DNA of 23,534 nucleotides from Scytonema sp. UIC 10036 (GTDB taxonomy: Bacteria; Cyanobacteriota; Cyanobacteriia; Cyanobacteriales; Nostocaceae). Below the pieces are notes generated by a model. It did not search any database, was not told the DNA's origin, and saw nothing but the letters and a program-made list of their open reading frames with translations. Numbering within the stretch: the stretch's first letter is position 1; each line of letters begins with the position of its first letter. Shown one piece after another: positions 692 to 16,414 of the stretch. The translations under genes and the position numbers were made by a program. The DNA lies in assembly GCF_009725235.1 (NCBI RefSeq), contig NZ_WJFC01000208.1:1-23534 (forward strand). Reading direction: 5' to 3'.

Positions 692-2752
692 CTAAATCTT
701 TACTACTTCATTATTTTCATTAAGGTGATAGACCGCGACAACTTTACCCCGCTCCTTAGTAGCGACTGTCCAGCCGGGATTTTGCTTAAGAGCGTGCTCA
801 ATATCCATCAATGAGGCTTCCGTAGCTTTTAAAGTGATGGTTTTATCTTGAGGTGGCTGAGTAGCAGTGACAGGTTTTTCCTCTGACTTGCCTGATTTCA
901 TTGCTTGCCCGTCTAAGAACTTATCGCTGATTAGCTGGAGCAGTTCTGTAATCCGTTCGCTTCCATGCCGTTTGTTGTAGTAAGTCTCAATTTTGCCAGG
1001 GTCTTTCGAGTTGCCCATACCGTGCTTGGTATTATGAGACACAACCTCATCCGCGTGAGCTTTTATCCAATCGCCAACAACCATGCCGTTCGCTCCCGAT
1101 AGTTCCCGAAGTGCTTGATTAGTAACAGCTAGGCGGTCGTTGTCTCCAGTTGCCATCGTATCATTGTAAGTTGCGATCGCGAGAAACGACCGTCGAACTT
1201 TTTCTTCAGCGCTCCCTTTAGCCTTGCTCTCCCAAAGCTCTTTGTCGCTGAAGTCTTCCCAATTGGTAATGGACTTTGCTTGCTCCGCTGGCTCTGTGGT
1301 TTTTATCTGTGGTATGGATGTGGGTGTAGGTGTGGTATTGACTTGCATTCCTTGCAATTCTTCTCTAATTATTGCTTGAATCATTTCTCTTAAATCTTGA
1401 TTGGTTGCTTGTGGCTGTGGCTGTGGCTGTGGCTGTGGCTCTGGTTGTAGTTCTGGTTGTAATTGCATAGCAGATATTTCCTCTTTTAGCTTGATAATTT
1501 GGTCGTTAGCTTGATTTAAACGGCTAGAAGCAACAGCCAGTTCTTCTTTGAGGCGATCGCATTGACTTTTTGCTTCCAGAACTTCCTTGGTTGCATTCTC
1601 GTAAAAGTTCAACAAGTGACTAACAACGGACTGCTGGTTGGTTAATCCCAACTTGGATTGCAAGTTTTTAATTAACTCAAAATCTCCCTCAGTAACTCTT
1701 ACCGAAACTGCTTTTTCCTTCTGCGGTGCGATCGGGTAAGGGACTGGCTTTGTAACGTAATAATCTGAATAGCCCAGAGTAGTAACGATGTGGTTCAAGT
1801 CTCTATCGGACGGCTTATCATTTGGTGCAATATGACCCAAAAAACGACCAAATGCCAGCATTTTAGAACCAATGGAACCAGGATAGTCACGTTCAACAAT
1901 CAAGGCAGCACAAGCAGCACGTAAAGCTTTGTTGTTGTTCTGGTCATCTCCTGAGCGCAGTTCTAGTGCTGGATTTTCGGCGTATTTATCTCCGAAATAT
2001 TCCTTGACAACACGTCTGAGCGATTGACCACGACGGTTGTCTATGGCTCTGTTTTGTGCTGCTAGGTCGTTCGGGAATTCGTTGGCGACTTCTTGAAGAA
2101 GTGATTTGGTGGAAGGCTCTTTACGTAAGCGATTTAGACATTTGATTATGTATTCTCCAGGGTAAAGCACACCAATTTCAAAGCTGGTATCTTGACCGCG
2201 CTTCTTGCCCTGACCGGAGAACATCACCTTATAAGCTTGCCCCTCAACTGGGAAAAATTTAGCACGAGCTAAAATTTCGTGTGGTCGTCTACCAGTTGCG
2301 GCAATTAACCCAACAGCTAATTCGTGAGGGTCTTCACTTTCTAGCAAGCGCCCGGTAACTTCCAGATATTTATCTGGATCGATTTCTTGTCCTTCGTTGG
2401 ATAGGCGGTCAGTTACTCGCGTGGTTTGGTTGCGATCGTTCCACTGCTCTTGAGTCAAGCCACAAAGCTCCAGGCACAAATGCTTGATTGTAGTACCCGT
2501 AACATTTCCGTTTTCGTCGTGCTTTGGCACAATAACAGCGTTTTGTCCAGGAACCAAGTTAGTAATTGACTTGAATTTTTTGTAGAACCCAGCACGACTC
2601 AGGACAGTACCTAGAGAGTCGCTGCTATAACTGGTTTGAGTGTTTAACCAGATGTTGAACTGTTCGCAATGTGGCTCGATCTCCTCACGGCTCATCAGGT
2701 CTTTTGTGGCTTCAAACAGTTCATTTACCTTGTCTTGCAGTACTTTAGACAT
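692..2752 (-). CDS. Telomere resolvase (protelomerase)-like tyrosine recombinase with C-terminal extension
   Basis: Telomere resolvases cut a palindromic DNA site through a catalytic tyrosine and rejoin it as covalently closed hairpin ends. Seen here (686 aa from the chosen start): TGRRPHE at about 153-159 carrying the first catalytic Arg, a candidate Lys at 183/184 in FSGQGKKR, LRAACAAL with Arg278, FGRFLGH with His307, and GYSDYYV with candidate Tyr328/331/332. This R-K-R-H-Y set and spacing fit the protelomerase family. A coiled coil (about 388-429), a Gln-Pro repeat (431-448) and a C-terminal domain of unknown role follow. The start is set at 2752, not the in-frame ATG at 2773, because GAGG lies 8 nt upstream of 2752 and a TAACNNGTTA site overlaps the other ATG. 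Cyanobacterial homologues also occur on replicons not known to be linear, so actual hairpin formation is unproven. A conventional recombinase is the alternative. Confidence 0.72.
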   Translation of the reverse strand: MSKVLQDKVNELFEATKDLMSREEIEPHCEQFNIWLNTQTSYSSDSLGTVLSRAGFYKKFKSITNLVPGQNAVIVPKHDENGNVTGTTIKHLCLELCGLTQEQWNDRNQTTRVTDRLSNEGQEIDPDKYLEVTGRLLESEDPHELAVGLIAATGRRPHEILARAKFFPVEGQAYKVMFSGQGKKRGQDTSFEIGVLYPGEYIIKCLNRLRKEPSTKSLLQEVANEFPNDLAAQNRAIDNRRGQSLRRVVKEYFGDKYAENPALELRSGDDQNNNKALRAACAALIVERDYPGSIGSKMLAFGRFLGHIAPNDKPSDRDLNHIVTTLGYSDYYVTKPVPYPIAPQKEKAVSVRVTEGDFELIKNLQSKLGLTNQQSVVSHLLNFYENATKEVLEAKSQCDRLKEELAVASSRLNQANDQIIKLKEEISAMQLQPELQPEPQPQPQPQPQATNQDLREMIQAIIREELQGMQVNTTPTPTSIPQIKTTEPAEQAKSITNWEDFSDKELWESKAKGSAEEKVRRSFLAIATYNDTMATGDNDRLAVTNQALRELSGANGMVVGDWIKAHADEVVSHNTKHGMGNSKDPGKIETYYNKRHGSERITELLQLISDKFLDGQAMKSGKSEEKPVTATQPPQDKTITLKATEASLMDIEHALKQNPGWTVATKERGKVVAVYHLNENNEVVKI

Positions 2753-2772
2753 ATAACATTCCTCTAATTTCA

Positions 2773-2846
2773 TAACTGGTTACATCCTAACTTAACCTGT
2801 TATAGATGTCAATAACCAGTTATGATTTTTATGACTTAACCAGTTA
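2773..2846. promoter_or_regulatory. Four phased TAACNNGTTA palindromes upstream of the recombinase gene
   Basis: Sites are TAACTGGTTA 2773-2782, TAACCTGTTA 2793-2802, TAACCAGTTA 2813-2822 and TAACCAGTTA 2837-2846. The first three are exactly 20 bp apart, about two helical turns, so they face the same side of the DNA. They cover the likely promoter and 5' leader of the telomere-resolvase-like gene, as expected for an autoregulatory or nucleoprotein-complex site. Confidence 0.7.
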
Positions 2847-2880: not shown

Positions 2881-3156
2881 CTACTCAAATTCAGATAAAT
2901 CGACTGAAATTTCTGACTGGCTTAAAGGCTTCGTTTCTTCGGCTTTTTTCACTTCTGGCTGAGCTTTTGGTTGGGGGATAGCTGAGGGGATTACCTGTGC
3001 TTGTATTCCTTTTTGTTGTACTCGGTAGTTGTCGATTATCCAATACAGAGTACTTAAAAAACTTTTCTCCAGTCTTTCGCCTTCAGCCCTGATGTACTCT
3101 GCATACTCCGTGCGAATACGAACTTGTTCCGATCCATCTTTTCCCTTCGTCATCAT
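2881..3156 (-). CDS. ParR-like ribbon-helix-helix centromere-binding protein
   Basis: A 91-residue protein whose first half (about residues 10-45: EQVRIRTEYAEYI, then the helix around EKSFLSTLYWIIDN) fits a ribbon-helix-helix fold, with a strand followed by two amphipathic helices. The second half is Pro/Gln/Lys-rich and ends in the acidic DLSEFE. In actin-type plasmid partition the small protein next to parM binds parC repeats and couples them to the filament, often through a C-terminal tail. It lies 20 nt downstream of the ParM-like gene on the same strand, so the two are probably co-transcribed. The start has AGG six bases upstream; a second ATG follows immediately. The role is inferred from fold and position. 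Confidence 0.65.
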   Translation of the reverse strand: MMTKGKDGSEQVRIRTEYAEYIRAEGERLEKSFLSTLYWIIDNYRVQQKGIQAQVIPSAIPQPKAQPEVKKAEETKPLSQSEISVDLSEFE

Positions 3157-3164
3157 GATTACCT

Positions 3165-3182
3165 GCTTAGTATTTACTATTC
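3165..3182. repeat. parC-type iteron between the parM-like and parR-like genes
   Basis: GCTTAGTATTTACTAT at 3165-3180 repeats the palindromic core TAGTA-TT-TACTA found upstream of the parM-like gene (4145-4279). It overlaps the parM-like stop codon. A related inverted form lies just inside the parM-like 3' end. Confidence 0.6.
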
Positions 3183-4130
3183 GTTTACATAGTATCCACG
3201 CTTTTTGGCGGTAATCAAAGCCAGTTGGTAAAGACCTCTGGCATTAGCCATCTCTGGTCTGTCAGTAATAGGTTCAAACTTTTTACTGGTGAGAACATTG
3301 GCAAAACCTGGAAGTGCCACACCGCCACCAATGCAGATAATTCTGTAGCCGTCTTTATGTAGCTCAAATGCAATCTTCCCTAATTCGCTCAAACCTTCAT
3401 TCCACCAAAGTTTGAGGCAATCTTTGTAGATTGGCGCGATCGCAACGCCATCTACTTTCATTTCCCCTCGCTCCAGGGAACGCCGAATCATTTCTTCATC
3501 CCCTGGATACCCTCCATTTACTACCTTCATTTCTTGTGAGATGAGCTTGATTAGCTTCTGGACACCGTAATGCTTAGTAATTGACTCCCCTGGCTTACCT
3601 TTTTGGTATGGGGTCAAGATGGTCGTACCAGTCCCAAAATCAAGAGTCGCGCAATTGTCTGAGATGTTGTACACTGCCCCGAATCCTTCAGGTACGACCA
3701 TCAGCACTTCAGTTGTCAGTTTGAGTTTTTTACCAGCTAGCGTAAGTTCTCTGTCAAGCCCTAAGTTTTGCTTGATTTGGTCTTTGTGAGTAGCATAAGC
3801 GTGACTTGAAACTACTACACGGCTAATTAATTCTTTGGGTAAGTCGGTGTGATGGGCTAAAGCTCCTAAATATAAGGTTTCGATACTGTCAACCTTGGCA
3901 TTGCGATCGTCCACAGTTCTCCGAATGAACTTCTGGGACAATAGAGCAGATTTGCCAACTGTGTAGCTAGTCCCATCGAACAGAACTGAACCGAGAGCGT
4001 CAATCTGGTAATCATCTGTTCTGTACGAGGGAATGCGTTCGTCCAGCCCATCACCGGAGATTTTGATATTGCCGTTACCCACATCAAGCCCGAAGTAGAA
4101 ATTGGTTTTTGGTCGTCCTGGTTTGGTCAT
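3177..4130 (-). CDS. ParM-like actin-family plasmid segregation ATPase
   Basis: A 317-residue actin-fold protein. Visible motifs are the phosphate-1 loop LDVGNGNIKI (D16), the phosphate-2 loop TLDFGTGTTIL (D164) and the adenosine motif CIGGGVALPGF (268-270). The length is usual for ParM/Alp proteins. These form dynamic filaments that push plasmid copies apart through an adaptor bound at parC. Three palindromic iterons sit immediately upstream, one follows the gene, and a ribbon-helix-helix gene comes next, which is a complete par cassette. The ATG at 4130 has AGAGG about 8 nt upstream. Repression by the ParR-like protein at the iterons is likely but inferred. An MreB- or FtsA-type role is unlikely given the size and neighbours. 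Confidence 0.82.
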   Translation of the reverse strand: MTKPGRPKTNFYFGLDVGNGNIKISGDGLDERIPSYRTDDYQIDALGSVLFDGTSYTVGKSALLSQKFIRRTVDDRNAKVDSIETLYLGALAHHTDLPKELISRVVVSSHAYATHKDQIKQNLGLDRELTLAGKKLKLTTEVLMVVPEGFGAVYNISDNCATLDFGTGTTILTPYQKGKPGESITKHYGVQKLIKLISQEMKVVNGGYPGDEEMIRRSLERGEMKVDGVAIAPIYKDCLKLWWNEGLSELGKIAFELHKDGYRIICIGGGVALPGFANVLTSKKFEPITDRPEMANARGLYQLALITAKKRGYYVNE

Positions 4131-4144
4131 TGTTGTTGCCTCTT

Positions 4145-4279
4145 GTGCTTAGTATTTACTATGCAAACCTGTCTGTATTGTATTCACTCTCTATTTACTA
4201 TGCAATCACTATGCTATTTGAAAGGCTTATGGTGGTCTAAAATGCCAGAAGTTCAGCTTAGTGTTTACTATGCAAGTGC
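4145..4279. promoter_or_regulatory. parC-like iterons / par operator
   Basis: Three copies of a TTAGTATTTACTATGCAA-type repeat: GTGCTTAGTATTTACTATGC (4145-4164), CTATTTACTATGCAA (4191-4205) and GCTTAGTGTTTACTATGC (4256-4273), all in the same orientation. The core TAGTA-TT-TACTA is palindromic, as expected of a ribbon-helix-helix target. They cover the region upstream of the parM-like gene and probably act as both centromere and operator. Confidence 0.7.
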
Positions 4280-4642: not shown

Positions 4643-4684
4643 CAGTAATTTAGCGTCTCATCTCCTATAAACGCTAAATTACTG
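4643..4684 (-). terminator. Perfect 14-bp inverted repeat at the 3' end of the ATPase operon
   Basis: CAGTAATTTAGCGT (4643-4656) and ACGCTAAATTACTG (4671-4684) are perfectly complementary with a 14-nt spacer. It begins 9 nt past the ATPase stop codon. It could stop transcription or protect the RNA end, but the stem is AT-rich and lacks a T-run. It may instead belong to the neighbouring repeat cluster. Confidence 0.45.
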
Positions 4685-4693
4685 TTAGTTAAT

Positions 4694-6970
4694 CTACTTT
4701 TTAGAATTTTTTAGCCAAGTCTTACCGCAAGATGGATTTTGGCATAGCCACCGCTCGCCCTTAGAGCGAAAGTCATCAGAACCGCAATGTGGACACTTTA
4801 TAACTGGCTTAACAATTTCCGTTGCAACCTCTTTTTCTACCTCATCCAAAATATTAGAAATTAAGCCCTTTTGAGTATTTGTACTCACTTTCGCCTCTTT
4901 TTCGCCCATCACTTCCCAGTAGTCGTAACTGTCAAAATCGGGTAACTGGATGAACTTAGGTTGACCTGATAGAGGTACTGCTAACGCAAATCTGTAAGCT
5001 GTCGGATCGGTGAAGATGTCCAATCCCAAGTCTTCATTCTTCTTGTCGCAGTACTCTTGAATCTTGGCGTTCTGCTCAAGTAGTTTGGTTTTCTGTTCGG
5101 CAGTAATGGTTGTCGCCTTATTTATCCACACGCCAGCATTTGCCCCGATGTGAAGCTGGACAGCACTATTCCAATCAGACCAACTCATTCCTGGTATGGT
5201 CGAAGCATCTGCGGACTGACCGATGTATATTGCCCCTATACTCTGGTGAGAAGCTTGCTTAAGAGAGTAAGTTACTTTGTCCTTGAAGTAGTAGTACCCA
5301 TTCTTCTCCCTCTCCTGTGCGATCGTAGAATCCACTTCGTCAAAAATATAAAGCACAAAGGGATGATTGCCTGGAGATTTAGTACGTTGGTCTAACTTAG
5401 AGCAAAGTTCAGCCATGCCCGTTACATTGTCCTCATGGCTAGTCCCTGCTTTTGGCATATCCCAATAATCTTTCTTTGACCCGTGTTGAGGGTCATACAA
5501 TTTAATTTCACCCTGACCGTTGCGGGACTTCATGATTGCTAATGCAAGGTTTTTGGCTGTGGGAGACTTGCCCCCGGTACTACCTGCTGTAATTCGTATG
5601 CGCTCCCAGTTCTTAACGTAGCTCTCAAAACGTTCCACTGGTACCCAGAGTTTATCTATATCATTTTTGGCGTGCTCCTTCTTAACTGGCTTGCGTAGGG
5701 TCACATCAAGCGTTACGGTTGAATGCTGATAATTGAAAGTGAACTTAGGCAATGTACCTTGTAGAGCATTAGTGAATGCTGCTAGTTGTTCCTGGGTGTT
5801 GTGAGGTAATAATTCCGTTTCTGTTAGTCCAGGATTTTTACGCGTTGCAAAGAGAATACTGTACCCTGTCTCATTTTCAATCCAATTAATCACATCGAGC
5901 TTATAGCCATAGTTTTCAAAGTAATAATTGGCAATTCTATTAGCAGCTAGCGCATAATCAGAAGCGCCTATTGCTAACAGGGGCTTTTGCAATTCCTTAT
6001 TTTCATTTTGCAAGTTCTCTACTTCTTTGGTTAAATCGTCAATCACCAAATTGCGCTTCTCCAATAAATCTAGTAGTTGCGCGTGGATAGAATTATTATG
6101 CAGCAGTAAGTTTTCATATTTCTCTGTGATTTGCGCGTCCACCTCATCTAATCCCTCTTTGTGTCGGGCAATAGCAATATCCAAAGGCATTGAGTTTTTC
6201 AGAGATTCTTTAAGCCCTTTATTCTCTTGCTGACTTGACTTAAGTAATGAATTTCTCCACCTAACCTTCATCCCCAGAAAACTGTTATCAAATTCAAAGA
6301 TAAAATCTAGAACCGTTTGAAAATCTTTGATGTCTAACTGTTTAATTTCCTCCATAGCTTGAAACATTTCATCTTTCAGTTCACGTACATCTTTGAGCCT
6401 TTGCTTTATAGCTGGACTATCAACCAGTTTCATGAGGTCTTTTTCAATTAATACAAGCTGGTTGTACCTCAGTAAGAAAAACTTTCTGGTGTGGTTTCTA
6501 GAATCTTCTAAAAACTCTTCAACTCGCTTGTCTCTTTCACTAACAATTCCCTGTAGCTCACCAATTCTTAAATCTTTTTCAGCAACAATTCTGAGAAACT
6601 GCTCTGACTTTTCATTGAGTTGAGACTTGAGATTGCTAATCTGTTCTGTGTACCTGCCTTCTTGAGTCTCAAGAACTTTGATACTGCTTTTCAGATTGTC
6701 GATAGATATTTTTAAATCTGTTAATTCTCTGTTTTTAGATTGCTCAATACCATAAATCTTGTCAGCAGTTTCTTTCTCTAATGATTGATGCTTTTCGCTG
6801 TAAGCAATTCCCAAGCCAGCACATACTAAAGCTGAAGTAGTGCCAGCCACACCAACAGTTAAAGCCAAGCTTTTGGTAAAACCTTCTGAGTTCCAAGCTT
6901 GAATTAAACCAGTAATACCGAGTAGGGTGCTTCCAACAAACACCCCATAATAGATATGATTAAATCTCAT
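4694..6970 (-). CDS. Membrane-anchored HerA/FtsK-like P-loop ATPase with coiled coil and zinc ribbon
   Basis: A 758-residue protein. In order: two predicted membrane helices (about 7-24 and 36-57), a long coiled-coil region (about 60-325), a linker domain, a P-loop ATPase core and a C-terminal zinc ribbon with CPHC (726-729), C743 and C748. The Walker A is AGSTGGKSPT (462-471) and the Walker B is VLYIFDEVD (539-547). LYDPQHGSK (491-499) sits where HerA/VirD4 proteins have a DP-x-G motif, and IGQSADAS (583-590) where they have a polar sensor. HerA/FtsK relatives pump DNA, often through membranes. It is the last gene of a leftward six-gene unit that also encodes DNA-binding proteins, so DNA translocation at the membrane is a reasonable inference. 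It resembles a coupling protein or conjugal pump, but no relaxase or pilus genes are visible. AGG lies 6 nt before the ATG. Confidence 0.68.
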   Translation of the reverse strand: MRFNHIYYGVFVGSTLLGITGLIQAWNSEGFTKSLALTVGVAGTTSALVCAGLGIAYSEKHQSLEKETADKIYGIEQSKNRELTDLKISIDNLKSSIKVLETQEGRYTEQISNLKSQLNEKSEQFLRIVAEKDLRIGELQGIVSERDKRVEEFLEDSRNHTRKFFLLRYNQLVLIEKDLMKLVDSPAIKQRLKDVRELKDEMFQAMEEIKQLDIKDFQTVLDFIFEFDNSFLGMKVRWRNSLLKSSQQENKGLKESLKNSMPLDIAIARHKEGLDEVDAQITEKYENLLLHNNSIHAQLLDLLEKRNLVIDDLTKEVENLQNENKELQKPLLAIGASDYALAANRIANYYFENYGYKLDVINWIENETGYSILFATRKNPGLTETELLPHNTQEQLAAFTNALQGTLPKFTFNYQHSTVTLDVTLRKPVKKEHAKNDIDKLWVPVERFESYVKNWERIRITAGSTGGKSPTAKNLALAIMKSRNGQGEIKLYDPQHGSKKDYWDMPKAGTSHEDNVTGMAELCSKLDQRTKSPGNHPFVLYIFDEVDSTIAQEREKNGYYYFKDKVTYSLKQASHQSIGAIYIGQSADASTIPGMSWSDWNSAVQLHIGANAGVWINKATTITAEQKTKLLEQNAKIQEYCDKKNEDLGLDIFTDPTAYRFALAVPLSGQPKFIQLPDFDSYDYWEVMGEKEAKVSTNTQKGLISNILDEVEKEVATEIVKPVIKCPHCGSDDFRSKGERWLCQNPSCGKTWLKNSKK

Positions 6971-6995
6971 GATGACCTACTTTTAATTACAAATT

Positions 6996-7016
6996 AGAGG
7001 GGAGTTTCACCCCTCT
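6996..7016. terminator. Hairpin between the coiled-coil and ATPase genes
   Basis: AGAGGGG (6996-7002) and CCCCTCT (7010-7016) form a 7-bp stem with a 7-nt loop. On the plus strand it is followed by TTTTT, a good rightward terminator. On the minus (operon) strand it lacks a T-run and more likely attenuates or stabilises the message. Confidence 0.45.
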
Positions 7017-7022
7017 TTTTAC

Positions 7023-7877
7023 TTAGAATCCAGCTGCAAATTTGGCTACAGCTTCTTGCTTAATCTTCTCTTTCTCATATGCGATATTTTGAATTTCGTA
7101 CTTAACTTTCTCGTTCTGTTCACGAAGCTTGTCAACCTTAAGTTGTTCTTGTTCTCGAATCAATTCTGTCTGGTTTTGAGTGCCTTCAGTACGAATATTC
7201 TGTTGAACCAAAAGTTCACGGTCTTGATTAAGCTTGCTGATTTCAGTGTCGCGAGAAACAATTGAACGGTGATATGTGATCGCTTTTTTCTCATTGTCGA
7301 TACGTGCTGTTTTGCCATCAATCAGCAATCCAATTAAGCGTTGTTGCTCAAGGTCGAGTGTCGCTAAATCCTGCTTAAGTTTGGTATTGTTAATCGCTAC
7401 GCCAACAAAATTTCTCTGTCGAGCGATCGTGATATTTCGCTTGATTGCTTCACCTGAATCTAGCTGAGGTACAGATTCATCTATTTCTGCATCTGCTTTA
7501 GAGAGAATGCCGGCTGTGTCAACAGAGCCATTACTTAGGCTCGAAGGATTGTAGTCAATGGACCCGTTAACTGTGGCTGTAACTTTGTTGGCAACACCTT
7601 GAGCAGCTGCACCAACAGCGCCCTTAACAGCCTCACCGACCGCACCCACCACAGGGGAAACGACCTGTCCGGCTTGTTGCAGTTTTTCTTTTAAGTTGTT
7701 TCTCGCGGCTTCATCAACAGATGCTACCTCAGGGCTAGATTCAAAAGCGGATGTTGCTTCTGGGGATTGTACGGCTTCTGTTTCAGTGACCAACCTTTTC
7801 GATCCGGTCAGTCCACCACGTACACCTCTTTTTGAATTTTCAAGATTTGCACCTGTGAGTGTTCCTTTTCTTGGCAT
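7023..7877 (-). CDS. Coiled-coil protein of unknown function (ATPase operon)
   Basis: From the ATG at 7877 the product is 284 residues. It has a basic N-terminus (MPRKGTLTGANLENSKRG), an Ala/Val/Gly-rich stretch (about 69-103) that is not clearly a membrane helix, and a long charged coiled coil (about 205-280) rich in Glu, Gln and Lys. An in-frame ATG at 8018 would add 47 residues of low-complexity character. The 7877 start is preferred because AAAGGA lies about 9 nt upstream. The 146-bp gap before it holds two short inverted repeats (AGTCGGG/CCCGACT at 7926-7956; CGATATC/GATATCG at 7971-7994). I do not recognise the family. The adjacent ATPase gene and matching coiled-coil character suggest a structural partner of the ATPase. 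Confidence 0.6.
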   Translation of the reverse strand: MPRKGTLTGANLENSKRGVRGGLTGSKRLVTETEAVQSPEATSAFESSPEVASVDEAARNNLKEKLQQAGQVVSPVVGAVGEAVKGAVGAAAQGVANKVTATVNGSIDYNPSSLSNGSVDTAGILSKADAEIDESVPQLDSGEAIKRNITIARQRNFVGVAINNTKLKQDLATLDLEQQRLIGLLIDGKTARIDNEKKAITYHRSIVSRDTEISKLNQDRELLVQQNIRTEGTQNQTELIREQEQLKVDKLREQNEKVKYEIQNIAYEKEKIKQEAVAKFAAGF

Positions 7878-8023
7878 AATATTCTCATCCTTTGTGTTAT
7901 CAGTCGTGTTTACAGAGGGTGTTGAAGTCGGGGAAATTTTGCGATTCTGCCCGACTCTCAACCTAGAACGCGATATCAAGTAGGTAAGATATCGTAAGTG
8001 TTGCGATCGAGAGAGCAAGGATT

Positions 8024-8476
8024 TTAAGGGGTAACATCAGGTTCCCGAAAAAATTGATTAACGAAATAGGTGACTGACCGTGCATAACCACAAAATTGTG
8101 TAAGCGCGTTGCCACAAGCGAAGGATACAGGGTAGGAGCTTACTACAATCAGCAGAATAAAAGCCAAAGACCCATTCAATATTTGGTTTATTTGTGCTGG
8201 CATGGTTAAGTTTAGTTTCGCCTCTTCAAGCTTGCGTAGTTCAGCGTCGTGTTTGATTTCTTCAAGTGTTTGAATAGCACCAGTAAGATTCAGAATTTTT
8301 TGCTGATTGGGATTAGACAAACGCACTTCACAATACAGATCGCGTTTTAACATTTTCAGCTTTTCTTCATCGCTAATCAAACCTAGCGCTGTACTTTCTT
8401 CATTCCAATCGCGATGTCTTACAATCATTGCATCGATTTTATTCAAAGCATCAGCAAAAATTTCGTTGATTCCCAT
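8024..8476 (-). CDS. Small membrane protein of unknown function (ATPase operon)
   Basis: A 150-residue protein with a charged, mostly helical N-terminal two thirds (about 1-92) and one strong hydrophobic segment at about 99-121 (SLAFILLIVVSSYPVSFACG), followed by a short tail. It looks like a bitopic membrane protein with a large cytoplasmic helical domain. It follows the 94-residue gene after 11 nt and precedes the coiled-coil gene, so it is very probably part of the same transcript. No family recognised. A role in anchoring or gating the ATPase complex at the membrane is inference from context only. Confidence 0.6.
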   Translation of the reverse strand: MGINEIFADALNKIDAMIVRHRDWNEESTALGLISDEEKLKMLKRDLYCEVRLSNPNQQKILNLTGAIQTLEEIKHDAELRKLEEAKLNLTMPAQINQILNGSLAFILLIVVSSYPVSFACGNALTQFCGYARSVTYFVNQFFREPDVTP

Positions 8477-8487
8477 GATTGTTTCTC

Positions 8488-8772
8488 CTATTTAACTTGA
8501 ACTTGATTTCTTACTTGAAAATACAAGCCATCTAGTAACTCAATGATGTTTTGAAGGCTTGCATCTTGCTCCACTGAGCTAACAGCTTCCCAATCTTCAG
8601 ATGAACGTACTTGTAGCAAATCGTCAACCAGAAGCACAAGTTTATGCACTACTTTATTTTTGCTTGAGCCGTTTGTAGTCGTTAAGGCGATTACATTTTG
8701 TTTTAGTTTTGCAGCACGTGTCATGGCTTTTACTGTGTTTCTTTGCTGTTGTATTCTTTCTAGTTCGTTCAT
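8488..8772 (-). CDS. Small helical protein of unknown function (ATPase operon)
   Basis: A 94-residue soluble protein predicted to be mostly helical: a basic N-terminal helix (ELERIQQQRNTVKAMTRAAK) and a C-terminal half with alternating hydrophobic and acidic residues (LVLLVDDLLQV, then NIIELLDGLYFQV). It has no Cys, no membrane segment and no motif I recognise. The gene sits 12 nt after the SAP-repeat gene and 11 nt before the membrane-protein gene, the spacing of a co-transcribed unit. It may be an adaptor within the complex. Function unknown. Confidence 0.58.
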   Translation of the reverse strand: MNELERIQQQRNTVKAMTRAAKLKQNVIALTTTNGSSKNKVVHKLVLLVDDLLQVRSSEDWEAVSSVEQDASLQNIIELLDGLYFQVRNQVQVK

Positions 8773-8784
8773 GAAACTATCTCC

Positions 8785-9366
8785 TTATGCTGCTTGCAAT
8801 TCTTGTTGACGTGGTTTGAATGTGACAACCTTATTTCGTTGTTCCTTGAGGTAAGAAATAGCATTCAGATAATTCTCCTGACCTTTGCGGCTTGATGTCA
8901 GCTTCCATTGAATGAGTGAAGCCGCCATTGCATACTTTGTACTTCCAGCAAAAGTACGCACTGATTTACAAAGCTGTTTAAGTTCCGCACCCTTCATTGA
9001 GTCAGCGAGCGCCTGGATGTCATCACCAGACATGTAGTCCTTAAGAATCTGTCTGACTCGTGCTGCATTCTTAAGTCGTTCAAGACACTTAGCCTTAGTA
9101 CCAGAGTAGGGAATACCCATGACCTGACATAGGGCTGAGAGATATTTGCCTGGAAGGATATTGAGTTGCGCGTCTGACCATTCCCAACTAGCTATACCAA
9201 GCATCTTTTTAAAAACCGATCCTGGATGCAAGTGTTTAACAGGGATGTCCCCAAACTTTTGAACTCTGGCATCTATGAGTGATTGCAACTCGGACTTCTT
9301 AAGACCCGATAACCGGATCAGCTTTAGGGATTTTGCTTGTTCGCGTAACTGGGTAAGGGTAGGCAT
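8785..9366 (-). CDS. SAP-repeat putative DNA-binding protein (ATPase operon)
   Basis: A 193-residue basic protein with up to three SAP/Rho-N-like helix-turn-helix units: about 3-32 (TLTQLREQAKSLKLIRLSGL), about 72-99 (PGKYLSALCQVMGIPYSGTK) and, less clearly, about 126-153. SAP units follow a 'L..LC...GI..SGTK..L..RL' pattern that fits the second unit well. They usually bind AT-rich DNA. The ATG overlaps the stop codon of the preceding 55-residue ribbon-helix-helix gene (TAATG), implying translational coupling. Two DNA-binding proteins at the head of an operon ending in a DNA-pump-like ATPase suggest they mark or load the DNA substrate. That is inference. Confidence 0.6.
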   Translation of the reverse strand: MPTLTQLREQAKSLKLIRLSGLKKSELQSLIDARVQKFGDIPVKHLHPGSVFKKMLGIASWEWSDAQLNILPGKYLSALCQVMGIPYSGTKAKCLERLKNAARVRQILKDYMSGDDIQALADSMKGAELKQLCKSVRTFAGSTKYAMAASLIQWKLTSSRKGQENYLNAISYLKEQRNKVVTFKPRQQELQAA

Positions 9367-9533
9367 TACTGGTCCCTCATCTGGTTGGAAACTTGCGTCT
9401 CGAAAACCAGCTTTTCCAAATAGCTCGCGATCGCATGAGTGCTGGCATCTGCAGGTAACGAGTACATTTGCTTAATTTTTTCCACAGCAGGATAGCTCAG
9501 ACTGAGTCTCAGCGATTTGTAGGATTTCGACAT
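9366..9533 (-). CDS. Small ribbon-helix-helix (CopG-like) protein heading the ATPase operon
   Basis: A 55-residue ORF starting at ATG 9531-9533 and ending in a TAA that overlaps the next ATG. The pattern KSLRLSLSYP (strand), AVEKIKQMYSL (helix 1), then ASTHAIASYLEKLVFE (helix 2) fits a CopG/Arc-type DNA-binding dimer. A good sigma70-like promoter lies 49 nt upstream. The overlap with the SAP gene argues that it is real and co-translated. Likely autoregulator of the six-gene unit or binder of a cis site; both are inferred. The ribosome binding site is weak. Confidence 0.6.
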   Translation of the reverse strand: MSKSYKSLRLSLSYPAVEKIKQMYSLPADASTHAIASYLEKLVFETQVSNQMRDQ

Positions 9534-9581: not shown

Positions 9582-9611
9582 ATAGTAACAACTGGTGCGT
9601 CACCTTGTCAA
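9582..9611 (-). promoter_or_regulatory. Sigma70-like promoter for the six-gene ATPase operon
   Basis: On the minus strand TTGACA (complement of 9606-9611) is followed after 18 nt by TACTAT (complement of 9582-9587). It points at the 55-residue gene, giving a leader of about 40 nt. The 160-bp divergent region also serves the plus-strand gene starting at 9693. Confidence 0.55.
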
Positions 9612-9692: not shown

Positions 9693-9863
9693 ATGCCATC
9701 TCAAAAACCCCGCATAACTTTGCGGTTAGACGAAACAGATATTAATAACCTAGAGGAGTGGTCTAAAGAAGAATTTTTAACTGTGCCTCAACTAGCAAGA
9801 GTGATTGTCAAAAAAGCCATAGCAGAATGGCAAGCAAACAAAAAGGAACTCAAAAATGACTAA
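9693..9863 (+). CDS. Small ribbon-helix-helix (CopG-like) protein heading the integrase operon
   Basis: A 56-residue ORF: MPSQKPRITLRLDETDINNL (strand plus start of helix 1), then EEWSKEEFLTVPQLARVIV and KKAIAEW. The RITLRLDE strand and two helices are a classic ribbon-helix-helix pattern seen in many small cyanobacterial proteins. Its stop codon overlaps the next gene by 8 nt (9856-9863), so the two are translationally coupled. Probably a DNA-binding regulator or accessory factor for the downstream coiled-coil protein and integrase. The first codon is chosen because no longer in-frame start is available. Confidence 0.65.
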   Translation: MPSQKPRITLRLDETDINNLEEWSKEEFLTVPQLARVIVKKAIAEWQANKKELKND

Positions 9864-10176: not shown

Positions 10177-10229
10177 TTAGGGACGAAAGTTGACAGAAAA
10201 GCTTGAAAGCACGTTTGTGGTCTACCGAC

Positions 10230-10925
10230 ATGAAAATCAATCGACACGGGAGGGCTAAAGTTTTGACACAGGAAGAAATTCAGCTGCTTTTCAATTCGGG
10301 GCTTCAGTCTGACCGTGACCGAGCTTTATTCGGTGTCTGCCTGTATACTGCGTGTCGGATTGACGAAGCTTGCACCTTGAACACTGCCGATGTTTACGAT
10401 GGGAGAATGCGTGTACGTGGAGAAATCATCTTCCGCAGACACAACACTAAGGGAAAATTGGCTGCTAGGGCTATCCCAGTGATTGATGAGCTAAGGTCAC
10501 TGCTGCTTCAGTACAAACCTACTACTCGCCAAGGATTTCTCTTTCCCGGTCGTCACAACAGAGGGCATATCAACTCGGATTCGGCAGCCCGGATATTGAG
10601 AGAGGCGTGCTATAGCCTTGGCTTAGAAGGTGTTTCTACTCACAGTTTTCGCCGTAGCGCTTTAACCCAGATGAGCAATGCTGGCATCCCGTTGCGGGTC
10701 ATTCAGGAGATTTCGGGACACAGAAACTTGGAAGAACTACAGAAGTACTTAGAAGTTCGACCGGACCAGGTACGGGGTGCGGTTTCGGCTTTGTCTATGC
10801 TGTCTCATGTTGGGGATAGCTACGTCGTCAAATCAATCTTTGACGACGTAGACTCTACCCCCGATACAGAAACGATTTCCACCCAAGAAGCTAGCGCCGA
10901 TCCGCGCAAACATCAAAGGTCATAA
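10230..10925 (+). CDS. Compact tyrosine recombinase (integrase family, catalytic domain only)
   Basis: Tyrosine recombinases cut and rejoin DNA through a 3'-phosphotyrosine. All catalytic residues are visible (numbered from the TTG at 10203, nine codons upstream): R52 in TACRIDEA, K83 in HNTKGKLA, H147 and R150 in HSFRR, H173 in SGHRN and Y182 in KYLEVRPDQ. The ORF begins directly with the catalytic domain (AKVLTQEEIQLLF) and lacks the usual N-terminal core-binding domain, so it is short (231-240 aa against about 300-400). The ATG at 10230 is preferred to the TTG; neither has a clear ribosome binding site. It follows a ribbon-helix-helix gene and a coiled-coil gene. A role in resolving plasmid multimers or local inversion is plausible. 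No att site was identified. Confidence 0.8.
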   Translation: MKINRHGRAKVLTQEEIQLLFNSGLQSDRDRALFGVCLYTACRIDEACTLNTADVYDGRMRVRGEIIFRRHNTKGKLAARAIPVIDELRSLLLQYKPTTRQGFLFPGRHNRGHINSDSAARILREACYSLGLEGVSTHSFRRSALTQMSNAGIPLRVIQEISGHRNLEELQKYLEVRPDQVRGAVSALSMLSHVGDSYVVKSIFDDVDSTPDTETISTQEASADPRKHQRS

Positions 10926-12508: not shown

Positions 12509-12539
12509 AATTTACCTCCAACAGGAGGTCGGATTATGA
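12375..12539 (+). CDS. 54-residue leader ORF translationally coupled to rep
   Basis: A short ORF with a strong ribosome binding site (GGAGGA, 6-nt spacing). It starts MIFLNFYVDDILPKLGSLIK and ends QQEVGL, and its TGA overlaps the rep ATG as ATGA. The product is a mixed hydrophobic/acidic peptide with no family I recognise. ATGA overlap plus a structured leader is a known arrangement in plasmid rep control, where translating the leader opens or feeds the rep start. Rep also has its own AGGAGG at 12523-12528. A regulatory role for the act of translation is more likely than a peptide function, but this is inference. Confidence 0.62.
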   Translation: MIFLNFYVDDILPKLGSLIKEKHLTETLEALECLGYYGDSSVALLIYLQQEVGL

Positions 12540-15500
12540 GCTATGTTCCTACCCGGCACGGGAATCCATGCGTTCACTGTGGCGACATCGGGGGAAATTG
12601 TCGGACACACAGAAGCCGCGAGATGCATTTGTGTGTTTCCCTGGCTGGTTCCTTGAAAGGGGAGAAAAGCCAGGGATACGTAGTGATTGGGGATACAAGT
12701 GATGGCAGATGGGCGCAATTGCTACCCGATACCGAGGGTCTGTCCGAAGAAGCCAAGCGGGAAAATGAAACTAAGCGTCTACAAGAAAAGCAGTTGTGGC
12801 AAAAAACACAGCAGGTTGAACACAGAGAGCGCCAAGAGAAGGCACTGTCAGCTAGCGATCGGCACCAGTTTTACTCACAAATTCTCAGTCAGTTGACTTT
12901 TGACCATGCGACCTTAGCTGACCTGCGCCGTCGTGGTCTTTCTGAAGAAGAAATTTTAGGGAGTGACTTTAAGTCGGTTCACAAGTGGCAGGAGATAACC
13001 GGACCTTTTCCCCCCAACTTACCGGGCATTAGTAAAAATGGAAATGCTTTAATAGTCCCCGGTGATGGCTATCTACTCCCAGTTCGCAATGTGAATGGGG
13101 AGATTTGCGGTCTCCAGTTAAGACTGCATACCCCAATCGACAACAACCGCTATCGGTGGTTATCTTCAGCAGATTATCCGGTCAATACTCAAGAATTTGG
13201 TGAATTACCTTTGGCGGTTTATATCCCAAAGGAATTAAAAAATTTCAGCATCCAACTTGTCGAAGGGACAGGACTGAAACCATTCTTAGCAGCTGAGAGG
13301 ACAGGCATGGTAACCATTGGCGCTAGTGGTGGCAACCATACTAGCAGCCCAGAAACGCTTAAGAAAACAATCAACGAACTACAAGAGGCATTATGTCAAA
13401 TCGCTCAAGAAAATGGTATAGCCTTAGTCACGCCGAATCTACAAACAGGCGTCAAATTGAAGAAATCAAAAGAGCAATTATCAGCCAATGGGAAACAGTC
13501 GGAAGCGGAAGAAACCCAGACAAGGCACGTATCAGAATCCGTAAATATCCAAAATCATTACTTGCCATCGCGGCTAAGGAACTCGCTGGCGAACACCCAG
13601 AACTTAAAGACTATAACATCTACTTTCTGTAGCATCATTATCACTCCAGATGCGGGTTTTGCTCTTAACCCATCCGTCATCAAAACACTATTGAGAACGA
13701 TAAGTTGGCTGAAAGAGAATTTTAAAGAAAACCCAATTTATGTTCACGACTGGAATCAAATTCATAAGAGCCAAGGTGATATTGATGAGTTAAATGATTT
13801 CTCTATTGTTCGCTGTTTGAGGCTTGAATCTTTCCAGAAGAAATACAAAGAAGTCGTTGATTTTGAGAAAGGATTTGCTAACAAGCGCTATCAAGAATGG
13901 GCAGAGAGTAGAGTCAAGTTAACTGCTGATATTATTCAACATGAAAAGTGGCTTACCATTCCAGATGGCATACAAAATGACTGCGATATCTTGCTGATAA
14001 GAAAAGCTTTAGGTGGTGGGAAGACTCAAGCTTTAATCAACTTCTTAAAAGGAAAAGATATAGATTCATCGGGTGCTGTTGCTCTGCTTGTTGGGTATAG
14101 GAACACTCTTTTGAATAACACAATTGAAAGAGCTAATCAGCTTGGTCTACCAGCAATGCATATTAAGGATGCAAGAGAATTGGTAGACAAAACTGTTGTT
14201 AATTTCGCGGCTGATGATTCTATCAAGCTCTGGGGTGGATGCGCCGACAGTTTCTTTAAATTCGATGCAGTTATAAGCCACAATCCCAATTACTTTTTAA
14301 TCCACGATGAAATCTGCTCTGTCTTAGGACATTTGAAAGGGGGAGGAACTCTAAAAGGTCGCCAACAGCAAGCGATAAAATGGGATGTTGAGACAATTAG
14401 AAATTCTAAATTCTGCATCATGATGGATGCCAATCTTTCTGACAAAGAGGTAGATTTTATCCGACAAATATTTCCTGAGAAACGTATTAAAGTTCTTGAT
14501 AGCACTTCTCCTGCTACTCCCCGAAAATTCATCTTTTTAGAGACGGAAACAAGCCAAAAAGATTTCACGGTACTACCAAAATATCTGCCATCTCAACTGA
14601 TGGAAAAAGCCAAGGCAGCAAATCGGGTGCTTTGGCTTTCTGATTCTCAGAGAAGTTGCGAGATAGCTGATGAAATCCTCACTAAACATGGACACAAACA
14701 TTTCCGATTGGATGGAAAGACCAGCCATGATGAGATAGCAGCACAATTTCAAAAAGCTCCAGTACAATTTATTACGACTGAAAACCTTGATTCAGTTAGC
14801 ATTTCTCCCAGTGGGGAAAGCGGATTATCAATTGACCTCTACGATTATTTTGATATTGTTTGTCTTGACATTCGCGGGACAGTTAGCGTTAATACCTTAA
14901 CCCAGTTGTCAGCTCGATTAAGAGATACAAATGTACTAATTTATGTGGCTTGTCCCGAATTCGTGAACATGACTAGCGACCCTTGCCCCTACGCATCAAA
15001 GCGAGTAGCAGAAGTTCTTAACCAGCGACTTGATATGCTTCTGGCTAAAGCAATGGAAATTGATGAGGAGTTGGTAAACAGCCAATTTGTGGTGGATATG
15101 TTCAGTGAGATGGGCGAAAAGTTTTCCACCGACCCCTGGTTTACCGAGAGCCTAAAAGATGCTAAAGAATTGAAGTACGAGCACTCAAATCTGAAACTGA
15201 CACTCAAGACCGCGCTGTCCCAGGCAGGACACAGGGTAATTGACCTAGCAGAGGTAGCAAGTGAGGAACAGCACGAGGAGATACTAGAAACTAGGGAGCT
15301 CGTTAAGCGTCGGGAAGCGTCAAAGATTTTTAACTCCCAGGACATTGACTGGGAGCGAGCGCAGGAACTTTCCAAAAAAGATGTTGATTACGAGACAAAA
15401 TGTCAAATTCGCAAGGCACGTTTAAAACACCAGTTGCCTGGAATTGAGGAGACTCCAAGCTGGAGCGCCGACCTTGTATATACTCTGCTGCTTGACCAGC

Positions 15501-16414
15501 CAAAATTTTTGGACGAGCGATGGCGACTGAAACAACTTGAGGATGAAGAGCTATTTAAATCGATTTTCAAAGTTGAAAAGCAGTACAGTTTTGAAAATGG
15601 ATTTGCTCCCACAGATATTTGGAAGTCCACCAGCACAAAAATAGAGGCGCTCAAATTACTGGGAGTAGGGAAAATTATTGAGACTGGCTTGTTCTCCTCA
15701 CAAGATGACTGGTTACAGGAGATTATCAATCAATATTATGAGAACGACGACTGGTTCAACTTAATTGGCATACCCAAGGCGAAGCGATCTCTCAACGAGG
15801 ATGGCAGCTTTAAGAATTTGCAATATATCAAGAAAATGGTGGACAGGTTCCTAGAATATTTCGGGCTGGAGTGCAAGCAAAGTGCAAAAACTCGCAGTAG
15901 CCGCTCATACACCATAACAACGCCAGAAGCACTAGAAGATTACCTTCCAGATATTGACCAATGTCTCAATACCAGGGCTAAAGCAATTCTTGAGTCAGCT
16001 CAAAAGTTATCGCTTAGAGAAGCATCTGACAGAGCAGAGGAGAAGCAGAGGCAACAACAGGAGTGGGAGGAGAAACACCAAACTGAGCTTAACAAGCGGA
16101 TGCTAGAAAATCAGCTAAAGCGGAGTGACTCCGCCCGTGGCACTTCTCCCATTCTTTTATATAAACCAAAAGCGGAAGTGCCACACACCGAGGTATATAA
16201 TATGACTGATACTGAGATGGACGAGTGGAATCAGCCAGAAACCATTGCCGATGTCGTTCAATGGTTGGGAAGCTGTGAAAGTCCAGAAATGTTAGCCGAG
16301 TTGCGATCGTGTAATGTACCGCCTGAAATTTTGAAGCTAGCAAGTCGGCAACTCCCTAAAGAGAAGCGCGACCAGATACGAGAGTGGGTTCTATCAGCTC
16401 TGACCCCAGATTAG
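12536..16414 (+). CDS. CyRepA1-type plasmid replication initiator
   Basis: A 1292-residue protein. Seen in order: an N-terminal Cys/His cluster (C12, C15, C22, H31, C33) of zinc-binding type; a DUF3854/Toprim-like region with VEGTGLKP (E243), ITPDAG (D372) and DIDEL (415-419); a P-loop ALGGGKTQA (491-499); HDEI (590-593) as Walker B; and a C-terminal helicase lobe with LWLSDSQRS and the arginine-rich LTQLSARLRD, then a long charged tail. The Toprim-like plus SF1/SF2-like helicase layout is that of CyRepA1, the cyanobacterial plasmid initiator family. Between TLKKTI and IIITPDAG there is an insert of about 85 residues with unusual composition. AGGAGG lies 7 nt before the ATG, which overlaps the leader-ORF stop. 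Two further CyRepA-like features, primase-like chemistry and origin melting, are inferred from domain type. Confidence 0.85.
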   Translation: MSYVPTRHGNPCVHCGDIGGNCRTHRSREMHLCVSLAGSLKGEKSQGYVVIGDTSDGRWAQLLPDTEGLSEEAKRENETKRLQEKQLWQKTQQVEHRERQEKALSASDRHQFYSQILSQLTFDHATLADLRRRGLSEEEILGSDFKSVHKWQEITGPFPPNLPGISKNGNALIVPGDGYLLPVRNVNGEICGLQLRLHTPIDNNRYRWLSSADYPVNTQEFGELPLAVYIPKELKNFSIQLVEGTGLKPFLAAERTGMVTIGASGGNHTSSPETLKKTINELQEALCQIAQENGIALVTPNLQTGVKLKKSKEQLSANGKQSEAEETQTRHVSESVNIQNHYLPSRLRNSLANTQNLKTITSTFCSIIITPDAGFALNPSVIKTLLRTISWLKENFKENPIYVHDWNQIHKSQGDIDELNDFSIVRCLRLESFQKKYKEVVDFEKGFANKRYQEWAESRVKLTADIIQHEKWLTIPDGIQNDCDILLIRKALGGGKTQALINFLKGKDIDSSGAVALLVGYRNTLLNNTIERANQLGLPAMHIKDARELVDKTVVNFAADDSIKLWGGCADSFFKFDAVISHNPNYFLIHDEICSVLGHLKGGGTLKGRQQQAIKWDVETIRNSKFCIMMDANLSDKEVDFIRQIFPEKRIKVLDSTSPATPRKFIFLETETSQKDFTVLPKYLPSQLMEKAKAANRVLWLSDSQRSCEIADEILTKHGHKHFRLDGKTSHDEIAAQFQKAPVQFITTENLDSVSISPSGESGLSIDLYDYFDIVCLDIRGTVSVNTLTQLSARLRDTNVLIYVACPEFVNMTSDPCPYASKRVAEVLNQRLDMLLAKAMEIDEELVNSQFVVDMFSEMGEKFSTDPWFTESLKDAKELKYEHSNLKLTLKTALSQAGHRVIDLAEVASEEQHEEILETRELVKRREASKIFNSQDIDWERAQELSKKDVDYETKCQIRKARLKHQLPGIEETPSWSADLVYTLLLDQPKFLDERWRLKQLEDEELFKSIFKVEKQYSFENGFAPTDIWKSTSTKIEALKLLGVGKIIETGLFSSQDDWLQEIINQYYENDDWFNLIGIPKAKRSLNEDGSFKNLQYIKKMVDRFLEYFGLECKQSAKTRSSRSYTITTPEALEDYLPDIDQCLNTRAKAILESAQKLSLREASDRAEEKQRQQQEWEEKHQTELNKRMLENQLKRSDSARGTSPILLYKPKAEVPHTEVYNMTDTEMDEWNQPETIADVVQWLGSCESPEMLAELRSCNVPPEILKLASRQLPKEKRDQIREWVLSALTPD

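Follow-up and report, generated by a model that had tools for sequence, protein, structure and literature searches.

How are hairpin-ended linear plasmids inherited in filamentous cyanobacteria? For two of the three linear plasmids of Nostoc N6, excerpts of the published description state that its authors found no partition gene (PMC5987646). The question is raised again by a locus on contig NZ_WJFC01000208.1 of Scytonema sp. UIC 10036, the whole 23,534 nt of which were analysed and are called the window below. Six open reading frames (ORFs), all on the minus strand from 9533 to 4694 and encoding 55, 193, 94, 150, 284 and 758 residues, had been described in the initial annotation as an operon coupling DNA-binding proteins to a membrane-anchored, DNA-pump-like ATPase, and all six were recovered. 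The last two, a coiled-coil gene and the ATPase gene, form a cassette that recurs, often, on small cyanobacterial plasmids carrying a telomere resolvase and whose proteins are alike within hosts. This cassette may move hairpin-ended plasmids between dividing or neighbouring cells as a system not yet described. The features of the locus, in the direction of reading, are as follows.

9582..9611, minus strand: sigma-70-like promoter match, 10/12 to consensus
9366..9533, minus strand: gene 1, ribbon-helix-helix (RHH)-like candidate of 55 residues, in the window alone among 37 loci
8785..9366, minus strand: gene 2, SAP-domain protein of 193 residues, candidate DNA adaptor, in the window alone among 37 loci
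8488..8772, minus strand: gene 3, protein of 94 residues, in 2/37 loci including the window
8024..8476, minus strand: gene 4, protein of 150 residues with one hydrophobic segment at about 94-122, in 4/37 loci including the window
7023..7877, minus strand: coiled-coil partner of 284 residues, the constant neighbour of the ATPase
4694..6970, minus strand: FtsK/TcpA-like membrane-anchored ATPase (the motor) of 758 residues, in all 37 loci by selection
4643..4684, no strand: perfect 14-bp inverted repeat without a T tract, directly past the ATPase stop codon

Genes 1 and 2 overlap (TAATG) and the later gaps, read from the sequence, are 12, 11, 146 and 52 bp, with the start of the 284-residue protein taken as the ATG at 7877, as in the database protein, rather than the mechanical TTG call at 8018. 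The tight spacing initially described thus holds for the overlap and the two short gaps; it is not tight throughout, since gene 4 and the coiled-coil gene are 146 bp apart and the 52-bp gap before the ATPase gene contains a hairpin (6996-7016). Similarly, the one promoter proposed is present as a site at 9611-9582, but it is no proof of a single operon, since such sites occur in near-chance numbers (14 found against 10.4 expected, standard deviation 3.3). A single transcript for the six genes is plausible, and the 146-bp gap fits a separable last cassette of coiled-coil and ATPase genes.

Conservation was investigated in 37 ATPase-bearing loci, the six-frame ORFs of which were searched with 15 window proteins. 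The counts include the window and represent 36 distinct loci (L010 and L076 are the same plasmid, both counted); they come from up to five jackhmmer rounds, in which drift is possible. The coiled-coil gene was present in 36/37 loci, the exception being L078, in which the upstream sides of both ATPase copies lie beyond the stretch read. Of the 52 loci compared, which leave out L003, L076 and L154 (contigs shared with others) and the short L155-L157, 51 have both genes, and in 48 of them the coiled-coil gene lies upstream of the ATPase gene on the same strand, no more than 800 bp away; the three exceptions correspond to a record wrap (L007), an insertion sequence (L063) and an inverted duplication (L061). 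A telomere resolvase was found in 34/37 loci, a replication protein in 25 (28 by clustering, plus a second family of ~1200 residues in six loci), a recombinase in 18 and ParM in 14. No resolvase was seen in the stretch read for L004 and L068, and none in the 40 kb read for L063, the record of which has one elsewhere. The six genes did not co-occur as a set: the coiled-coil and ATPase genes alone stay constant, and those upstream of them are replaced. What recurs, as read from the ORFs, is an order in which putative DNA binders come first, the coiled-coil gene next and the motor last, with the binders exchanged. The core idea of DNA-recognition parts joined to a membrane pump, with no transfer apparatus, is therefore carried by the recurring arrangement and not by the six-gene set as such. 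Inverted duplications containing the ATPase and resolvase genes, and in L061 also the coiled-coil gene, were observed in L061 and L078 and may represent dimers joined head to head or else the long terminal inverted repeats of linear plasmids. A GIY-YIG nuclease family lies near or inside the cassette in 15/37 loci (for example L007:22195-22683, L008:9265-9768 and L060:15333-15848); in L008 its gene is located between the coiled-coil and ATPase genes.

The association with telomere resolvases can be seen in the window itself, which encodes the following two proteins.

692..2773, minus strand: telomere resolvase (protelomerase) of 693 residues, Pfam ResT-TelK_cat E 6e-25
12536..16414, plus strand: CyRepA1-related replication protein (Rep) of 1292 residues, NCBIfam CyRepA1 E 3e-58

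The ResT/TelK catalytic domain scores 88 bits against a cut-off of 27 and the resolvase matches the protelomerases of phages N15 and VP882, while Rep scores 198 bits against a CyRepA1 cut-off of 200. From its genes, the window is therefore judged to be all or part of a telomere-resolvase plasmid; no telomere was seen in it, both ends lying within open frames. The initial annotation had missed both the resolvase linkage and an adjoining ParM-like locus. To extend this beyond single loci, 388 genomes of the order were scanned with the Pfam resolvase model and a motor-only profile, a count free of the jackhmmer drift risk. The motor scan is a lower bound, with at most five candidates scored per genome, and G002, on which the draw was centred, had itself been identified by way of its motor. 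The motor was detected in at least 28 and the resolvase in 71 of the 388 genomes, and a resolvase was present in 25 of the 28 motor genomes against 46 of the 360 others (Fisher p 1e-17, relatedness ignored). Likewise, 29 of 39 motor contigs also had a resolvase match, by a Pfam model independent of the 37-locus count. A first order-wide scan (268/388 genomes, two candidates per genome) gave mostly zinc (Zn)-ribbon matches to unrelated proteins and was replaced.

Complete plasmids show the same association. By tblastn against PLSDB, motor relatives were found in 16 records, all from cyanobacterial genera; direct blastn of the operon against PLSDB gave no match. The published excerpts describe three linear and seven circular plasmids in Nostoc N6, with hairpin ends inferred from reads and coverage, and covalently closed hairpins, inferred from reads, for the linear plasmids pNPM8-10 (PMC5987646). 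A profile search of N6 located the motor on 3/3 linear and 0/7 circular plasmids, and the resolvase on these three of the ten as well; the window shows no enrichment of the published N6 end motif AAATTAACRGAC. Genome G387 has two motor matches only, one of them a gene with an in-frame TAG, on contigs of 65,222 and 56,077 bp, and the excerpted description of Nostoc ATCC 53789 gives 13 replicons, including two linear plasmids of 65,222 and 56,077 bp (PMC7118181). We infer that G387 is ATCC 53789 and hence that its motors are on its two linear plasmids. Three complete resolvase plasmids lacking a BLAST-level motor were also inspected: L116 encodes a divergent member of 860 residues (motor profile E 1.8e-15), L117 a truncated member, and L118 a different two-helix P-loop protein instead. 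The L118 protein (486 residues) belongs to an operon of similar layout (L118:8810-12471), on a plasmid that also has a relaxase.

The relationship between cassette and host was examined in the 52 loci by comparing mean same-host identity with that after 2000 shuffles of host labels, which ignore host kinship. The coiled-coil protein gave a same-host mean of 54.5 (22 pairs) against 13.2 in shuffles, and the ATPase 48.7 (24 pairs) against 19.4, neither mean being reached in 2000 shuffles. The effect was weak for the resolvase (24.2, 20 pairs, against 16.3; 141/2000 shuffles) and for Rep (23.6, 14 pairs, against 15.9; 65/2000). Among ATPase pairs at least 75% identical, which are non-independent, resolvase identity was 0-36% in the seven same-host pairs against a median of 73% in the 21 different-host pairs (p 0.0017). 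In seven comparable pairs the gene 1 or gene 2 proteins diverge more than the motor, which may reflect faster evolution of small linker-rich proteins. These comparisons suggest that Rep and resolvase mark plasmid identity and that motor and partner face the host.

Counting the window's own protein each time, the search with the ATPase collected 127 proteins and that with the coiled-coil protein 69. The Walker A motif AGSTGGKS is present in 103 of the 120 ATPase-family proteins listed, among them that of the window, and the GK, DE and GQ residues are kept in the motor alignment in an FtsK-like arrangement. The structural model predicts a helical hairpin (3-27/31-about 55), a long coiled coil, a P-loop domain (445-690) and a C-terminal Zn-ribbon-like end, and its top solved fold matches are TcpA and FtsK, 3-4 Z units above RecA entries. 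As in FtsK/SpoIIIE proteins, the motor has a RecA-like fold in which Walker A, Walker B and a conserved Q are present; at the level of the fold the proposed FtsK-like relation is borne out, as is the membrane anchor. Two N-terminal membrane helices, as initially described, agree with the modelled hairpin, whereas a hydropathy scan of the window ATPase alone gives one transmembrane segment. At the sequence level the FtsK_SpoIIIE model gave no significant match, the window ATPase having no Pfam match at E<=0.1, and the KOPS-recognising C-terminal gamma domain likewise had no Pfam match in it. The C-terminus instead has near-invariant Cys residues and short strands; in the window protein it matches an IS1/IS1595 Zn model below threshold, and PF03811 is precomputed for several homologs. 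A sequence search of the PDB with the motor profile placed G-protein alpha subunits at the top (E 0.004), with FtsK at E 0.11, which was regarded as P-loop noise and not used. Domain exchange was also observed in the family: P0073, P0081 and P0093 have the same membrane and coiled-coil part with a different P-loop domain (GHPGAGKT), and in P0076 and P0098 that front part is joined to the motor type of another family clade, so that motors appear swapped.

Many relatives of the coiled-coil protein have a basic N-terminal tail. Upstream of it, the bitopic membrane protein described initially agrees with overlapping hydrophobic windows at 94-122 of the 150-residue protein, read as one helix, and a same-strand upstream ORF with a hydrophobic segment was found in 12/36 loci. 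For gene 2 the claim was a SAP repeat: one Pfam SAP domain (77-101, E 6e-6) is above cut-off, but a Rho_N-like piece at 3-27 is sub-threshold, and a single-sequence AlphaFold2 model was poor (predicted local distance difference test score 60). The RHH assignment of gene 1 follows a pattern seen by eye, the 55-residue protein having no Pfam match at E<=1. Other small proteins fill the promoter-proximal slots in relatives: a family of ~120 residues (12 members) with weak helix-turn-helix (HTH) matches in the two members scanned, one of ~205-245 residues (11 members) with no Pfam match in the one scanned, and one of ~100 residues that is RHH-like by eye and gave no Pfam RHH match in five scanned. 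Overall, the observations of the initial annotation were confirmed in part and its interpretation was supported in part.

Transfer genes were sought in 15 complete relative plasmids, 13 with the motor plus L116 and L117. PF03432, the sole relaxase family tested, was found in two, pLBY and a 325-kb plasmid of Leptolyngbya NIES-3755; the latter alone also had T4SS-DNA_transf. The VirB4-like PF03135, the sole mating-pore-type component tested, was found in none, and no Pfam relaxase match was obtained among the window proteins scanned. The initial statement that relaxase and VirB-like genes are missing is therefore upheld by 13/15 and 15/15 complete plasmids, respectively, and such genes do not simply lie outside the window. 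Fifteen of 16 motor plasmids are typed as non-mobilizable, although pLBY, one of these, has a relaxase.

Taken together, these data lead us to favour, tentatively, a reading of the cassette as a membrane-tethered double-stranded DNA (dsDNA) translocase of hairpin-ended plasmids that acts in septal inheritance. The ATPase would be held in the membrane by its helical hairpin, its long coiled coil ending in a motor of FtsK/TcpA type that acts together with the coiled-coil partner; the motor, hexameric to judge from its fold family, would pump dsDNA. Plasmid-specific DNA binders from the adjoining upstream genes (SAP and RHH-like in the window, HTH-like in other loci) would label the plasmid and pass it to the motor; matched to its host, the motor would then move the copies at the septum as it closes, bringing linear plasmids into both daughters and working beside ordinary Par systems where these are present. 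The data themselves show the linkage of the genes, the similarity of the fold and the likeness of motor and partner within hosts; DNA translocation, the adaptor role, the septal site and inheritance itself are what we infer. This reading is preferred because the motor sequence follows the host and because, in the excerpts of the N6 description, pNPM9 and pNPM10 are reported without parAB or parM (PMC5987646). An extended version, possible but distinctly more doubtful, is a shared, host-adapted dsDNA pump interchangeable between co-resident hairpin-ended plasmids, each with its own DNA-tagging proteins, Rep and resolvase, which would move whole plasmids through septa to daughters or along the filament. 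Several points weigh against septal inheritance. A partition role could be redundant on the window plasmid, which carries a ParM-like locus of its own; some co-resident plasmids have unrelated motors (for example L006/L060, L081/L083, L064/L147 and L073/L144); host matching could arise from recombination between co-resident plasmids, or be affected by the host kinship that the shuffles ignore; and the resolvase contrast is not significant at ATPase identities of at least 60% (p 0.064). Pfam FtsK matches only 5/31 motor homologs, weakly (best E 0.021), and other P-loop families do equally well or better, such as AAA_22 (4/31, best 7e-5) and nSTAND_NTPase5 (5/31, best 0.002). The resolvase also does not appear to imply the motor: 46 of the 71 resolvase genomes had no match in the lower-bound motor scan, and among 20 motor-less resolvase contigs, many of them short, three gave weak ATPase-profile matches. 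The proposal as a whole is computational, and its closest fold is that of a conjugation coupling protein.

That last point, the lack of other transfer genes and the filamentous hosts favour the chief rival, minimal cell-to-cell transfer, in which an FtsK-like motor would pump the dsDNA plasmid into the next cell of the filament with neither relaxase nor pilus, in the manner of TraB or TdtA; we consider it possible, with clearly less confidence than inheritance. The excerpted literature describes TraB as enough for primary transfer as dsDNA, of plasmids down to 10 kbp, which gives transfer by a single motor a precedent (PMC5365140). The best fold match being the coupling protein TcpA and the distribution of PF03432, VirB4-like genes and mobility types fit transfer, but the motor follows the host and not the plasmid, unlike a broad-range transfer system, and the window showed no clear TRS-like repeat array, the repeat families found there being near or in other genes or having two copies. 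The named genera with the motor are presumably all filamentous, but this distribution comes from a word-limited search, the genera among the matches listed and genus names. Less likely is a membrane anchor or regulator, with a role in tethering the plasmid or in controlling replication or telomere processing and with the DNA not moved far. In many loci the operon is divergent from the replication gene, the cassette travels with resolvases and the coiled coil is long, all in keeping with an anchor; opposed to it are the motor residues kept in an FtsK-like arrangement and the fact that, to our knowledge, the telomere resolvases characterised so far work without a partner of this kind. That the ATPase is the packaging motor of a phage satellite or degenerate phage is very improbable. 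Large-terminase-like genes occur in 6/37 loci and in L116, Pfam Pox_A32 matches 3/31 motor homologs (best E 5e-4), and the modelled fold resembles the STIV2 B204 packaging ATPase and viral FtsK-like proteins, including a 712-residue uncharacterised protein of Nodularia phage vB_NspS-kac65v161 (Foldseek against BFVD, E 4.7e-6, rank 10). The terminases are separate genes from the motor, though, and tblastn of three motor queries against 50,697 phage records gave no credible match (a 47-residue Variovorax match near the C-terminus, E 0.06, was judged to be chance); PHROGs matched the window ATPase only at E 0.086, within the coiled coil, no related loci were found in viral contigs, and no capsid gene was annotated in the relatives fetched, no search being aimed at capsids. 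As for an ordinary conjugation system with its remaining genes outside the window, the TcpA-like fold and the relaxase in 2/15 relatives (one, of 325 kb, also with a type IV secretion coupling protein) are outweighed by nearly all complete plasmids tested lacking these genes, and the idea is largely refuted and scarcely credible.

Terminase-like genes are located at L009:17061-18882 (preceded by a small-terminase-like gene), L058:16872-18335, L116:2360-3826, L007:15611-17131 and L002:19755-21227; on resolvase plasmids without an annotated capsid set they look like phage remnants or satellites. Defence functions were also considered: no PADLOC model matched the five window proteins scanned, and matches in two relatives were judged to be coiled-coil or P-loop noise. 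Other features of the window are listed here.

574-634, no strand: second TAACCRGTTA-type repeat cluster, on the other flank of the resolvase gene
2773..2846, no strand: TAACCRGTTA-type repeat cluster, upstream of the resolvase gene
2881..3156, minus strand: protein of 91 residues after parM, ParR candidate by position alone, no Pfam match, in 5/37 loci
3177..4130, minus strand: ParM-like actin ATPase, Pfam ALP_N E 3e-11, PHROG partition protein E 4e-23
4147..4275, no strand: three 20-nt direct repeats upstream of parM, candidate parC
9693..9863, plus strand: small RHH_5-like protein, below the Pfam cut-off, divergent
10203..10925, plus strand: tyrosine recombinase, Pfam Phage_integrase E 1e-25

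The TAACCRGTTA-type repeat has 17 matches in the window on both strands against 2.5 expected, a number reached in 0/100 shuffles, and its palindromic clusters are candidate operator or resolvase-binding sites. The ParM-like gene, the direct repeats and the 91-residue ORF likely form a ParMRC locus. Both contig ends (21605-23534 and 1-189) lie in open frames, of which the right-hand one gives weak AAA/TPR matches, so that the contig is probably incomplete. In L008, L010, L067, L069, L070, L073, L074 and L077 the resolvase match is split into two adjoining ORFs of ~290-400 residues, as if two domains or two paralogs were separated.

With a two-gene cassette that tracks hairpin-ended plasmids and has a testable Walker A motif, their inheritance becomes directly testable, and transfer can be separated from segregation in a multicellular bacterium. 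Two points are new, the link to resolvase plasmids and the likeness of the cassette within hosts, and motors alike among co-resident plasmids with mostly unlike Rep and resolvase proteins are a clue few specialists would expect. No paper on a coiled-coil and ATPase cassette was found among the literature matches listed, which cover titles and the start of abstracts, with subscription papers and preprints outside the scope. Among known systems, the resolvase catalytic domain is shared with phage N15, Agrobacterium TelA and Borrelia replicons, none of which, as far as we know, encodes such a motor cassette, and the motor gave no credible match in phage records. FtsK is anchored by four membrane helices, in place of which the ATPase has a helical hairpin, and unlike FtsK/SpoIIIE it has a Zn-ribbon-like C-terminus instead of the gamma domain and no significant Pfam FtsK match. 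TcpA, the FtsK-type coupling protein of Clostridium plasmid pCW3, is about 12% identical to the ATPase, and the systems differ in the long coiled coil, the Zn-ribbon-like end, the telomere-resolvase plasmids and the VirB4-like genes (0/15 relatives). A ParM-like gene with upstream repeats, as in ParMRC, is present in the window, beside which the cassette would be a second machine, ParM being found in 14/37 loci only. TraB of Streptomyces plasmids and TdtA of Thermus are likewise, in the excerpted literature, single FtsK/HerA-like motors lacking the usual set of relaxase and pilus genes (PMC5365140). The present cassette differs from both in that it is known from its genes alone, no clt-like repeats were found, and recognition of DNA is probably the task of separate adaptor proteins.

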